The notes under the pieces: generated by a model
Told to the model about the DNA's origin: nothing
Databases searched by the model: none
Seen by the model: only the letters and a program-made list of their open reading frames with translations
Position numbers and translations under genes: made by a program
Assembly: GCA_903868845.1 (NCBI GenBank)
Contig: CAIPWS010000136.1
Coordinates: 1-12,560 of the forward strand
Source: an uncultured bacterium
GTDB lineage: Bacteria; Patescibacteriota; Minisyncoccia; Phycocordibacterales; PALSA-1337
DNA: 12,560 nucleotides
Direction of reading: 5' to 3'
In this document: positions 7,050 to 11,411 of the stretch, in pieces
How the letters are laid out: every line of letters starts with the position of its first letter
How positions within the stretch are numbered: position 1 is the first letter of the stretch

Positions 7050-7412
7050 TTAGGCTATAGCTAACAACATGAGCAAAGCACCGATGAGAGCAATATTCTT
7101 CTGAAAATTGATCATGGAGTTCATCTTTGTCATAGGATCTGACTCCTTCCAAAAAGCATGCATAGTAAATGTGACTCCAACCAAGAAAACAATCAAAGCG
7201 ATAAGACCGATGAATACCATGTAACCTGTGATTATTGAGAGGCCACCTACGATGAGCAAAATAGTCGATATTATGACTGAAACCCCTGGTGCAGGAATAC
7301 CCTTCGAAGCAGCATAACCTGTCATGCCCTTGTGATTCTTTATGTGATTGAAAGCTGCCAAGAGCCAATACAAACCGAAGATGATACGACCTACTGTAAA
7401 TACTGTAAACAT
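7050..7412 (-). CDS. DoxX-family integral membrane protein
   Basis: This 120-residue protein has four hydrophobic helices (roughly residues 4-22, 44-62, 66-86 and 104-119). It matches the small DoxX/DoxD-type membrane family in length and pattern: 'VGRIIFGLYWLLAAFNHIKN' at the N-terminus, then 'GYAASKGIPAPG' after helix 1 and a 'MHAFWKESDPM' loop before the last helix. DoxX proteins are linked to thiosulfate:quinone oxidoreductase subunits in some archaea and to redox-stress membrane complexes in other bacteria, but many have no known activity. Its place between a P-type ATPase and a flavin oxidase suggests a redox or membrane-stress role here. The ATG at 7412 has no Shine-Dalgarno sequence. 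Confidence 0.85.
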   Translation of the reverse strand: MFTVFTVGRIIFGLYWLLAAFNHIKNHKGMTGYAASKGIPAPGVSVIISTILLIVGGLSIITGYMVFIGLIALIVFLVGVTFTMHAFWKESDPMTKMNSMINFQKNIALIGALLMLLAIA

Positions 7413-7481: not shown

Positions 7482-9386
7482 CTACTTACGACCAGCGCGC
7501 AATGCATTGACTATAGGAATGAAGTCTGTCAAAAAGTTATATGTTGCAGCTCCGACTGGACCGAGAAGTCCAAGTCCTGGTATTCCTACAGTAACCCAGA
7601 TGAGTCCTATGCCATTTGTGATACCCCAGATCCAAAAACTTTGATGCATAATACCCTTCACCTTCTGAGCCATAGTTATAACTTCTGGAACTCTGTCTAT
7701 ATGGTCCTTCATGATAGTGACATCAGATGCTTCTATGGCTGAGTCTGCGCCGATACCACCCATTGCAATAGAAACATCTGCCAAAGCTAGAGACGCTGCA
7801 TCGTTTACACCGTCACCTATATAAGCGACAACACTGGAAGACGAGCTATTTTCTTTTTCAAACTTCCTTATGAGATCAACCTTACCTTCTGGTGTCATGT
7901 TTGCATGGAAATGTCTCAAGTTTAGTTCGTGAGCAATATTCGATGCTGCTTTTTCATTATCTCCCGTCAACATATGCCACTCCTTCACTCCGAGCTTACG
8001 AGTTTCTGCTATGATCTCTGTAGCATGTGGTCGTAATTCATCTACATAAGAAAGTAGTCCAGCCACTTCTCCATTTACAGAAAGACAAACTATACCTCGT
8101 CCAGCATCTTTCTCAGTCTGAATATCCTTCTTCACCACATCGGATATGCGTGAACCACGAGCCTCGACGAATGAAACTCTTCCCATAAGCATCGCTTCAC
8201 CATCGTGGCTAAACGATATACCTTCACCAGGTATTTCATTCAATTCGTCAGGCAAGTGTGGCTCTATCTTATATTCGCTGGCATATTCCATGATAGCTCT
8301 AGAAATAGCATGCTTGGACTCAGCAGCTCCACCAACAAAACGTTTCGCAATCTCTTCACGAGTCCAAAGACCATACATATGTATGTCCACAACTTTCGGT
8401 TTTCCTCGTGTTAGAGTCCCTGTCTTATCCGTCAAAATATATTTCACCTTAGAGAGTTGTTCGAAAGCACTTGAACCCTTCACGATAACTCCACGTCTTG
8501 CTGCATAAGCTATGGCCGCTGTATATGCAAGAGGAATAGCAACAGCGATGTCATCTGCACATACAACAAGCAAAATAGACAAAATGACTTTCGGTTGGAA
8601 ACCGAGTAGGTAAAGACCGATCGAGACTATAAGCGATACAGCTATATACCACTGAGTAAATTTGTCCGCAGCAAGTTCTGCCTTATTTTTGTCACGACTC
8701 GCCTCCTCCACAAGTGAGACCATCCTAGAAAGAGTCGTATCAGCTCCAACCTTCTCAGTCTTAACTATAAGTGATCCTGATTCATTTACAGTTGAAGTAA
8801 AAACTTTGTCACCAGCTTTCTTGGGTATCAGTTCACTTTCACCAGTCAATGAAGACTCGTCGATATCTGCTTGTCCTGAGACAACCAGACCATCTACTGG
8901 TACCCTGTCTCCAGACTCAACAATAACCAAATCTCCAGGCTTTACTTCGCTTATATGAATATCCTTCACAGAATCACCGATCCTTATACGGACATTCTCA
9001 ACATGATATTTCATAAGACTCTGTATAGTCTTTTTTGCTCTGGTCTCTGTTATGAGATCAAATATTCTAGCGAAAGCCAACATGAGCGTTATGAAGGCTG
9101 CAGATGACCATTCCTGTGCAAACAATGAAAATACCAAAGCTATTGAAGCCAGCAAATCTACTGATATACGCTTCTCAACCAATGTTTTTAGAGCGCTAAT
9201 AGCCACTGGAATTATTCCAAGGAAAGCCAACACTGCCATGGACTCATGTAACCAAGGTGTATTTGAAAAAATCCTCGCAATAAGCAATGACCCTGTACAA
9301 ACTATCAATACGATATCGAACACCATGAAGAACCTTTCTTCGAAGAGTTCAAGTGAAGGAAAGTTTTTTGCAAATTTGATAGACAT
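7482..9386 (-). CDS. P1B-like (heavy-metal-type) P-type ATPase with non-canonical ion-binding motifs
   Basis: This 634-residue protein has the full P-type ATPase core: actuator TGES (181-184), phosphorylation site DKTGT with Asp320, TGDN (474-477) and GDGVNDA (524-530). The membrane layout, the KRISVDLLASIAL...EWSSAAFI start and the terminal NALR resemble P1B heavy-metal pumps. There is no N-terminal metal-binding domain. Two signatures are altered. The CPx site before the P-domain reads CADDIAVAIP (276-285). The HP dipeptide of the nucleotide domain reads HA (ESKHAISRA, 356-364). The last helix has NFLTDFIPIVNALR. The substrate is therefore open: a divalent metal, or another cation bound by the Asp pair. 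The ATG overlaps the NDH-2 stop as TAATG, allowing coupled translation. TAAACT-N6 upstream is a weak -10 match. Confidence 0.9.
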   Translation of the reverse strand: MSIKFAKNFPSLELFEERFFMVFDIVLIVCTGSLLIARIFSNTPWLHESMAVLAFLGIIPVAISALKTLVEKRISVDLLASIALVFSLFAQEWSSAAFITLMLAFARIFDLITETRAKKTIQSLMKYHVENVRIRIGDSVKDIHISEVKPGDLVIVESGDRVPVDGLVVSGQADIDESSLTGESELIPKKAGDKVFTSTVNESGSLIVKTEKVGADTTLSRMVSLVEEASRDKNKAELAADKFTQWYIAVSLIVSIGLYLLGFQPKVILSILLVVCADDIAVAIPLAYTAAIAYAARRGVIVKGSSAFEQLSKVKYILTDKTGTLTRGKPKVVDIHMYGLWTREEIAKRFVGGAAESKHAISRAIMEYASEYKIEPHLPDELNEIPGEGISFSHDGEAMLMGRVSFVEARGSRISDVVKKDIQTEKDAGRGIVCLSVNGEVAGLLSYVDELRPHATEIIAETRKLGVKEWHMLTGDNEKAASNIAHELNLRHFHANMTPEGKVDLIRKFEKENSSSSSVVAYIGDGVNDAASLALADVSIAMGGIGADSAIEASDVTIMKDHIDRVPEVITMAQKVKGIMHQSFWIWGITNGIGLIWVTVGIPGLGLLGPVGAATYNFLTDFIPIVNALRAGRK

Positions 9387-10642
9387 TAGGTCAGTTTAGT
9401 GATATCTCGTGTGAAAAAGAGTTGCAGTGCCCATTCGAACATGATACGTATCCTTTTTTTGGATGATGCAAATTTGAAGAGATAAATCGTACGCCATACG
9501 AACCATGTAAATCGGCCTTGTATACTTTTTTTGAATACTTCTCCAACTGCAAACAATTTTCCTACAGACACCAAACTACCTTTCAAATGAAAATCAAAAG
9601 TCTGTAACTTTTTTTGTTTTATCGAGGCAATGACGTTGTGAGCGATCACATCCGCTTGTTGAACAGCGGTTTGAGCAAGCATTGGTAATGCCCCAGCAGT
9701 ATCTCCCAAAGCAAAAGCCCTTTCATCTCCACTTATTCTGAAAAATTCATCCGTGTTCAGACGACCGGTATTTGATATGGTATTACTGCTTCCTATAAAA
9801 TCGAGTGAAATAGCTTTCACACCAGCAGCCCAGATTACTGTTGCTGTTGGTATTGCTTCAACCTCATTTGTCTTATCTAGCAAAGTTAAAGTGTGAGATG
9901 TGATATTTGTGACCTTACCTTCTAGTTTGATATCAACTCCTTTTTCTTTAAGGTGATCTAGAACTGATTTTCTCAATTGTGGCTGAAATTGCTGTAGCAA
10001 CTCTGGTCCAGCATGTATCAAGGTAATTTTGACTTCTTTATGATCACAAGAATAATTATTTTTGAAATAGCGATCTATCATTCCATGAATGAATTCTGTT
10101 AACTCCGCTACCGTCTCTACACCTGTCGGACCTCCACCAACTACTACAAACGACAACAATCTGGCACGTTCAGCAGGATCCTCACACATGACCGCTTCTT
10201 CGAAGCAGTCTATGACATGAGTACGTATATTTACAGCATCACTCAAGCTCTTGAGTGGTAAACTATACTTTTCCGCTCCCGGAATACCATAATAATTTGT
10301 TTCTGCACCAGTCGCTACAACCAGATAATCATAAGGAAGTGCATGTTGTGAATTTGCACTAGCAATATATACTTTTCTCTCTGTTAGATCTATGGACTTC
10401 ACTGCTCCCTGACATATAGCTATACCTGTTCCAGCAAATATCTCGCGAAGTGGTTCGGCCACACTAGTTGGACTGAGTGACCCTGTTGCAACTTCATGCA
10501 GAAGTGGTGTAAATAAAAAATAATTTGTTTTATTTACTATAGTTACATCGATAGTTTCATTCTTAACATACTTCGCCAACTTCTTGGCAACATATGTTCC
10601 ACCAAACCCTGCTCCAAGTATGACTATGTGCGGCTTTAACAT
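9386..10642 (-). CDS. NDH-2-like NAD(P)H:quinone oxidoreductase (FAD-dependent)
   Basis: This 418-residue two-dinucleotide-fold flavoprotein has GAGFGG (10-15) for FAD, VVATGAETNY (108-117), the NAD(P) motif GGGPTGVE (169-176), IWAAGV (270-275), the flavin-contacting ALGDTAG (311-317) and the quinone-site motif AQTAVQQ (323-329). The C-terminus (about 378-418) has the WFVWRTIYLFKF...RIRIMFEW and FFTRDI pattern of the type II NADH dehydrogenase membrane anchor. It should oxidise NAD(P)H at the cytoplasmic face of the membrane and reduce quinone without pumping protons. I start it at ATG 10642 (MLKPHIVILGAG). The frame continues to a start at 10678, but that adds 12 residues before the Rossmann strand and overlaps the ZIP gene. 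ATG 10642 is also preceded by TATAAT-N6. The stop overlaps the next gene's ATG. Confidence 0.93.
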   Translation of the reverse strand: MLKPHIVILGAGFGGTYVAKKLAKYVKNETIDVTIVNKTNYFLFTPLLHEVATGSLSPTSVAEPLREIFAGTGIAICQGAVKSIDLTERKVYIASANSQHALPYDYLVVATGAETNYYGIPGAEKYSLPLKSLSDAVNIRTHVIDCFEEAVMCEDPAERARLLSFVVVGGGPTGVETVAELTEFIHGMIDRYFKNNYSCDHKEVKITLIHAGPELLQQFQPQLRKSVLDHLKEKGVDIKLEGKVTNITSHTLTLLDKTNEVEAIPTATVIWAAGVKAISLDFIGSSNTISNTGRLNTDEFFRISGDERAFALGDTAGALPMLAQTAVQQADVIAHNVIASIKQKKLQTFDFHLKGSLVSVGKLFAVGEVFKKSIQGRFTWFVWRTIYLFKFASSKKRIRIMFEWALQLFFTRDITKLT

Positions 10643-10648
10643 TCTTAC

Positions 10649-10654
10649 ATTATA
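10649..10654 (-). promoter_or_regulatory. -10 box of the NDH-2-like gene, overlapping the ZIP stop codon
   Basis: A perfect TATAAT on the - strand overlaps the TAA stop of the ZIP gene and is followed by exactly 6 nt (GTAAGA) before ATG 10642. GT precedes the hexamer, as at the FAD oxidase promoter. This supports the shorter NDH-2 start and predicts a leaderless transcript. A -35 box is not evident. Confidence 0.5.
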
Positions 10655-11411
10655 ACCCAGCCAAACGAATAGCTCCATAGAGTATGGCTACTCCAAGTAA
10701 AGTCATGAGTGTTGTCATGAACTTGGGGTGTGCATGTTGACTCTCTGGTATGAGATCACTTGCACCAATATACAAAAAGAATCCAGCGAAAAGTGCCAAT
10801 ATCACACCAAGATTTTGTTCTGAAACTTTGAAAAACATAGTTGCGACTACACCGACTACTGGTGCCAAGGCGTCCGCCACAAGCCATCGAATAGCATGTT
10901 TAAATTCGCCTTTATTTTTCAAAATCATGTTCACGGTATTTATTCCATCAGAAAAATCGTGCACCAATACAGCTACAGCAACTATTGCTCCTATAGCAGC
11001 AGAAACTTGGAATGCGAGACCTATAGCGACACCATCCAGGAAACTGTGAAAACAAAGACTGCCTGCGCCGAGTATGCCACGCTGTGCATGTGTAGTGTTC
11101 TCGATATGTGATACTCCGTCAGCGTGTTCCGTGTTGTCATCATGATCATGAAAATGAAGAAAGACCAAACGATCGAGCAAAAGATAAATGACGAATCCGA
11201 GTGCGGTTATGGCAAGAATAGTAGAATTTGAATAAAAAACGCCGCCAAGATTTAGCGACTCTGGCATAAGATCGAAGAATGCCACAGCTATGACAGCTCC
11301 AGCTGAAAATCCAAGTATGAGATGTAACTTATCTTTCAATTTGAGAGCAAAAAGACCGCCGAGTAATGTGGCGACAAACGTAGCGATGGAAATGAGAATT
11401 ATTGTTAGCAT
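10650..11411 (-). CDS. ZIP-family metal transporter
   Basis: This 253-residue protein has about eight hydrophobic segments in the ZIP arrangement. Helix 2 contains FFDLMPES (45-52) and a late helix repeats the theme as GASDLIPES (216-224). Helix 4 has HSFLDGVAIG (122-131) and helix 5 has HDFSDGINT (151-159), the positions of the metal-binding HNxPEG-type motifs. The cytoplasmic-type loop between helices 3 and 4 is His/Asp-rich (HFHDHDD at 86-92, further His to 108), a common ZIP feature for zinc binding or sensing. ZIP carriers usually move Zn, Fe or Mn into the cytoplasm; the exact metal is unknown. The gene starts 24 nt after the second MacB-type permease and has no Shine-Dalgarno sequence or well-spaced -10, so it is probably co-transcribed with that permease. 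Confidence 0.9.
   Translation of the reverse strand: MLTIILISIATFVATLLGGLFALKLKDKLHLILGFSAGAVIAVAFFDLMPESLNLGGVFYSNSTILAITALGFVIYLLLDRLVFLHFHDHDDNTEHADGVSHIENTTHAQRGILGAGSLCFHSFLDGVAIGLAFQVSAAIGAIVAVAVLVHDFSDGINTVNMILKNKGEFKHAIRWLVADALAPVVGVVATMFFKVSEQNLGVILALFAGFFLYIGASDLIPESQHAHPKFMTTLMTLLGVAILYGAIRLAGL

Follow-up and report, generated by a model that had tools for sequence, protein, structure and literature searches.

CADD pumps of Patescibacteria, a P1B subgroup of P-type ATPases with an acidic, P2A-like putative transport site

The window (the whole stretch of DNA that was analysed, 12,560 nucleotides) carries a gene for a P-type ATPase, preceded by genes for a ZIP-family metal carrier and an NDH-2-like flavoprotein and followed by a gene for a DoxX-like small membrane protein (Table 1). 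The open reading frame of the pump reads on the minus strand, and the plus-strand frame over the same positions is riddled with stops.

Table 1. Genes of the locus and motifs of the pump, with positions in the window and the basis of each assignment.
Feature	Position	Strand	Basis or remark
ZIP-family metal carrier gene	10650..11411	-	upstream of the pump, same gene run
NDH-2-like flavoprotein gene	9386..10678	-	stop overlaps the pump start by 1 base
P1B-clade cation pump (P0001), CADD in the sixth helix (core helix M4)	7482..9386	-	634 aa
TGES (position 181), actuator dephosphorylation loop	8835..8846	-	motif reading
C276-A277-D278-D279 instead of CPx, core helix M4	8550..8561	-	motif reading, alignment, conservation
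DKTGT (position 320), phosphorylated Asp320	8415..8429	-	motif reading
H359-A360 (SKHAIS), HP dipeptide with Pro lost in the window's branch	8307..8312	-	conservation count
TGDN (position 474)	7956..7967	-	motif reading
GDGVNDA (position 524)	7797..7817	-	motif reading
N591, core helix M5, aligned with N of the P1B-1 YN pair	7614..7616	-	alignment
N617-F-L-T620-D621, core helix M6 (eighth helix), P2A-like N-x-x-T-D pattern	7524..7538	-	alignment
DoxX-like small membrane protein gene	7050..7412	-	69 bases downstream of the pump

CPx in M4 and the HP dipeptide are hallmarks of P1B pumps, whose classes are set by residues of M4 and M6. A preliminary description of this locus had read the protein as a P1B-style pump with an intact catalytic core and no N-terminal metal-binding domain, in which Cys-Ala-Asp-Asp (276-279) replaces CPx and HA (359-360) replaces HP, and each of these readings is borne out. 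Motif reading confirmed both replacements and found TGES, DKTGT, TGDN and GDGVNDA all present; Pfam identified only E1-E2_ATPase and Hydrolase domains, without HMA or the Cation_ATPase_N and Cation_ATPase_C domains. The protein passed the NCBIfam model of heavy-metal P-type ATPases (TIGR01525, 467 bits against a cut-off of 346) and exceeded the cut-off of the Cd family model (TIGR01512, 381 bits against 313.5); its scores with the KdpB, P3A and P2A models (163, 151 and 117 bits, respectively) were all well below the cut-offs. In the hydropathy profile two segments come ahead of M1; M1, M2 and M4 follow, then a single segment for the M5/M6 region, and M3 and M6 do not stand out on their own. 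The C-terminus lies 10 residues past P624, and helices M7 to M10 are absent.

The preliminary description had also proposed that other proteins with CADD be sought, and we observed this motif as a near-invariant feature of a large protein set. Three protein searches were run with three different members as queries, and the best 120 of thousands of matches (E < 1e-20) from each were listed, giving 360 proteins, two of which are the queries themselves; matches under E 1e-20 beyond these may belong to other families. Among the 360 listed proteins, the M4 residues are kept in 359 (C276), 360 (A277), 359 (D278) and 360 (D279), so that CADD is not a chance occurrence. The suggestion of a coherent P1B subgroup with an Asp pair is likewise upheld, since the residues of the eighth helix are conserved alongside: N617 in 359 proteins, T620 in 347 (with Ser in eight more) and D621 in 358. 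W587, N591 and G594 are found in 359 each. We consider it very improbable that these proteins are degenerate or regulatory P-type ATPases that transport nothing, as the loss of CPx, and of the HP proline in the window's branch, could suggest, since the catalytic motifs of the window's copy are intact and the proposed site hardly varies across the listed set. The organism names attached to these proteins are patescibacterial groups, as we take them to be, or plain 'bacterium', and several CADD members carry the automatic names Cd2+/Zn2+- or Cu+-exporting ATPase.

The HA dipeptide does not have the same standing. H359 is kept in 360/360 listed proteins, and position 360 is Pro in 228 of them, distributed very unevenly: 1/120 of the window's close homologues, against 119/120 and 108/120 in the other two listed sets. 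Since Pro is nearly absent in the window's homologue set only, it was lost chiefly, and late, in the window's own branch. The Pro of HP is missing also from 11/11 TPCP rows and 3/3 CPH rows of the tree described below. HA had been put forward as a defining feature; we rejected it as a subgroup mark, because HP is present in most CADD members and these other groups lack the Pro.

The distribution of the pump was examined in 379 genomes sampled evenly across the phylum, with up to three candidates per genome scored against profile A1. At least 12 of these genomes contain a match scoring at least 730 bits, a lower bound given the number of candidates scored, and CADD and N-F-x-[TS]-D are both present in all 12 matches. 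Below these, the best match falls to 504 bits, and the 14 other matches listed, at or below this score, comprise eight with TPCP, three with CPD, two with CPC and one with GAEPAV. In the window's genus, a CADD-pump match of at least 57% identity was found in 22/34 genomes, some of the matches being cut by contig ends. Among the 40 plasmid matches listed the closest, an AntA-like pump of an antimonite operon on an Enterobacter plasmid (L071), has 36% identity, and among the five phage matches listed the closest has 32%. CADD was found in none of the seven listed plasmid matches whose motif was read. In the literature searched, with most subscription journals and the FUPA classification papers outside its scope, we found no paper or biochemistry on any CADD member.

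Further P-type pumps with altered motifs were noticed in Patescibacteria. Four P1B-like pumps with open reading frames of 620 to 643 residues carry a phosphorylation motif with a basic residue: DKTKT for DKTGT, with CPDA in M4, in three (L093, L094 and L095, from genomes G182, G259 and G287), and DKTRT for DKTGT, with CPC in M4, in the fourth (L103, from G091). Another non-CPx variant (L097, G229:C38) is P1B-like, with 563 bits to TIGR01525, and has GAEPAVLAISVP in M4 and HEGGE in M6. The window's genome itself encodes a second P-type ATPase (L031, G000:C106) with IIPQGL in M4, for which no NCBIfam subtype model scored above its cut-off. A P6 label, which had been a guess, was rejected for this pump, since it has PQGL where P6 pumps have PEGL, according to PMC10654040, and its best match, TIGR01525 with 216 bits, is below the cut-off.

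The neighbourhood of the pump was compared in 27 loci, one per genome, 15 from the window's genus and 12 from outside it, with genes called as longest open reading frames and some contigs cut. In BLAST clusters, the ZIP carrier and the NDH-2-like flavoprotein are each found upstream in 10/15 genus loci, the DoxX-like protein occurs in 5/15, and none of the three clusters is present in the 12 CADD loci outside the genus. The ZIP carrier and flavoenzymes had been taken as a clue to a little-described subgroup; with the ZIP and NDH-2-like genes in 0/12 loci outside the genus they tell little about the CADD family, and deducing the substrate from neighbouring genes was rejected, as these vary between loci. 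Of the 27 neighbourhood loci, 17 were scanned with Rfam, and none of these yielded a metal riboswitch at the gathering scores. The ZIP carrier of the window and those of nine related loci have HSFLDG (once HSFFDG) and HDFSDG in all 10 copies; the usual ZIP motif is HExxH, and HDFSDG is more acidic. In one locus (L110) the gene after the pump is DoxX-like by eye, falling in no cluster and matching no NCBIfam model at E 1e-20. In another (L107, G298) a second P-type pump, with VVPEALP, begins 27 bases after the CADD pump, its best match being the Mg2+ model TIGR01524 (537 bits, below the cut-off).

The preliminary description had proposed a P-type ATPase tree as a check, and in such a tree the CADD pumps form a clade of their own inside P1B. 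The tree contains 64 P-type ATPases and was built by an IQ-TREE quick search with a PMSF mixture, with SH-aLRT values only and no bootstrap. The 24 CADD rows, picked for spread, form a single clade (SH-aLRT 100), which lies within P1B with SH-aLRT 99 against KdpB, P2A and P3A; the KdpB, SPC and CPG rows and L031, the row labelled P6, are long branches of unsure place. P2A and P3A rows were labelled by their motifs and by best NCBIfam matches below the cut-offs, the best match of the patescibacterial P2A rows being TIGR01522 with 546 to 629 bits against a cut-off of 798. The CADD clade groups with the TPCP clade and the AntA-like pump (SH-aLRT 91), the tree leaving the order among the three unsettled. 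The TPCP clade (SH-aLRT 100) is separate, so the CADD pumps are not within the P1B-5 clade.

We take the TPCP group as P1B-5 on two grounds. Its member from a Sinorhizobium meliloti plasmid has a C-terminal hemerythrin domain (PF01814), a domain described at this end of some P1B-5 pumps in PMC9388753, and the P1B-5 pump Nia of S. meliloti is reported, in PMC4932525, in connection with Ni2+ and Fe2+. On the same plasmid (L127), another P-type ATPase gene lies ahead of the P1B-5 gene. P1B-5 pumps are marked by TPC(P) in M4 together with QExxD in M6, both seen in rows of the tree.

This kinship leads to a reading in which the CADD pump would be a usual transition-metal exporter of the P1B-5 kind, for Ni2+, Fe2+, Co2+ or Zn2+, the Asp pair being a variant coordination. 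The tree grouping, the Asp at the D621 position common to P1B-5, the retained Cys276 and the ZIP carrier upstream in genus loci are consistent with it. Nevertheless, TPCP and the Q-E of QExxD have both been lost, and the membrane carboxylates D278, D279 and D621 favour harder ions, which makes this reading rather unlikely in our view.

Aligned with the solved copper pumps, CADD falls onto CPCA, and D278 takes the position of the second Cys of CPC, which places D278, by alignment, within the ion path; N617, T620 and D621 fall onto the M and both S residues of MALSS in copper pump 3rfu. The positions of D278, N617 and D621 are known ion-ligand positions in the copper pumps. N591 is also present in copper pumps and is thus not a P2-like novelty. 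In MAFFT alignments with P2A pumps of the same phylum, D278 falls onto the Glu of IPEGLP, and N617, T620 and D621 onto the N, T and D of NLVTD. Profile-profile alignment with hhalign put YNFLTD on LNFVTD without gaps, and gapped the M4 stretch, so that the match of D278 to Glu is based on MAFFT and on spacing, which is equal: 42 residues separate D278 from Asp320, as they separate Glu284 from Asp326 in a P2A pump (L059). At the M6 columns, NxxTD is found in 2/4 P2A rows of the tree, the others having NIIEE and NLVEG, and in none of the 32 non-CADD P1B rows.

In human SPCA1, Ca2+ is bound by Glu308, Asn738 and Asp742 together with backbone carbonyls of M4, according to PMC10313705; the enzyme is termed a Ca2+/Mn2+-ATPase in PMC6712213, and the sites of LMCA1 and SERCA (site II) resemble that of SPCA1, according to PMC11977196 and PMC3997511. 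The new observation is that D278, N617 and D621 align, with equal spacing, with the ion-binding Glu, Asn and Asp of P2A Ca2+/Mn2+ pumps. The preliminary reading, sound on the Asp-pair P1B subgroup and wrong on the HA mark, had overlooked this P2A pattern of D278 with the three residues of the eighth helix. Since the P2A and P3A rows are outside P1B, a P2A-like ion site would be a convergence, one that seems to be built partly on an Asp, that of the D621 position, also found in the P1B-5 relatives. The gene, the conservation of its motifs, the clade and the alignment to known ligand positions are established, and the CADD pumps form a genuine P1B subgroup that spans the phylum and whose putative transport site is acidic and P2A-like.

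One rival reading of this alignment is that the pump exports Ca2+, its P1B frame having acquired by convergence a site like that of SERCA/SPCA1, and fills the role of a housekeeping Ca2+-ATPase. The ligand positions agree with the Ca2+ sites published in the articles cited above and, in the window's genus, where CADD pumps are frequent, a P2A match was found in only 1/34 genomes, one without CADD, a pattern that may nonetheless be mere descent. Phylum-wide, in a scan that scored up to two P2A and up to three CADD candidates per genome, P2A matches (E <= 1e-85) occur in 5/12 CADD genomes, barely so in one (G373), against 158/379 overall. Replacement would mean mutual avoidance, so the CADD pump as a plain substitute for the P2A Ca2+-ATPase was rejected. 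As Cys276, kept in nearly all listed proteins, is moreover unneeded for Ca2+, we regard the Ca2+ exporter as unlikely.

Carboxylates in M4 and M6 are found too in P2 and P3 pumps, and two loci of the genus, L006 and L033, have a P3A-like pump close to the CADD gene, the one in L033 scoring 609.8 bits, just below the P3A cut-off of 615.5. The CADD pump could then transport H+, Na+, K+ or Mg2+, with the Asp pair serving as a site for protons or alkali ions, as in the P1A, P2C and P3 pumps. The placement inside P1B, apart from KdpB, P2A and P3A, the missing C-terminal helices of P2 and P3 pumps and the nearly invariant Cys make this improbable.

The reading that we somewhat favour, judging from sequence, is that of a P1B lineage with a convergent oxygen-rich site and one Cys, which would export a borderline or hard divalent cation. 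In the standard P-type cycle, ATP would phosphorylate Asp320 and TGES would drive dephosphorylation; the ion would be held between core helices M4, M5 and M6 and then moved out of the cell. The putative site would comprise D278 (with D279 adjacent) and Cys276 of M4, and Asn617, Thr620 and Asp621 of M6, with Asn591 of M5 near, a layout that would be that of a single-site P2A Ca2+/Mn2+ pump plus a thiolate. In combining Cys, Asp and Asn, the putative site would resemble the Asp-Asn-Met site with which Nramp carriers bind Mn2+/Fe2+. From this layout we infer the ion, as well as the geometry and the direction of transport: Mn2+ or Fe2+ would come first and Ca2+ second, because Cys276 would be a sulfur ligand superfluous for Ca2+. 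Tentatively, we put forward a narrower proposal, in which this patescibacterial P1B subgroup, having lost the CPx proline altogether, would have converged on the P2A site and would export hard ions: one Mn2+ (or Ca2+) would be bound by D278, N617, D621 and carbonyls of M4 within the short frame of heavy-metal pumps. Since a sulfur-rich site has been swapped for acidic residues like those of Ca2+/Mn2+ pumps, the CADD pump probably moves an ion different from the usual heavy-metal cargo.

If this reading is true, the names Cd2+/Zn2+- or Cu+-exporting ATPase on several CADD members may be wrong, and a large natural clade in which the M4 and M6 motifs of P1B have both been exchanged for a P2-like set would offer a ready test of the determinants of ion choice among P-type ATPases.

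Compared with known systems, the P1B-5 pumps share with the CADD pumps the catalytic core, the tree group and, in the patescibacterial members, a short frame of about 620 residues, together with the Asp at the D621 position (11/11 rows) and the absence of the HP Pro that marks the window's branch, and they differ in having TPCP (SPCP in one) and QExxD where the CADD pumps have CADD and NFxTD. In the AntA-like pump, as in that of the window, Pfam found no HMA domain, but CPCA is present in M4, QEAGC in M6, and HP is kept. The P1B-1 and P1B-2 pumps (CopA, ZntA, CadA) have the same fold family, catalytic motifs and NALR-type end of the last helix, with CPC in M4 and MxxSS or DxGx[TS] in M6 as differences. 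The P2A pumps (SERCA, SPCA1, LMCA1) resemble the CADD pump solely in how they would work, with an acid at the Glu308/309 position and an Asn and Asp four residues apart in M6, whereas they have PEGLP in M4 where the pump has CADD, extra C-terminal helices and a place on another branch of the tree.
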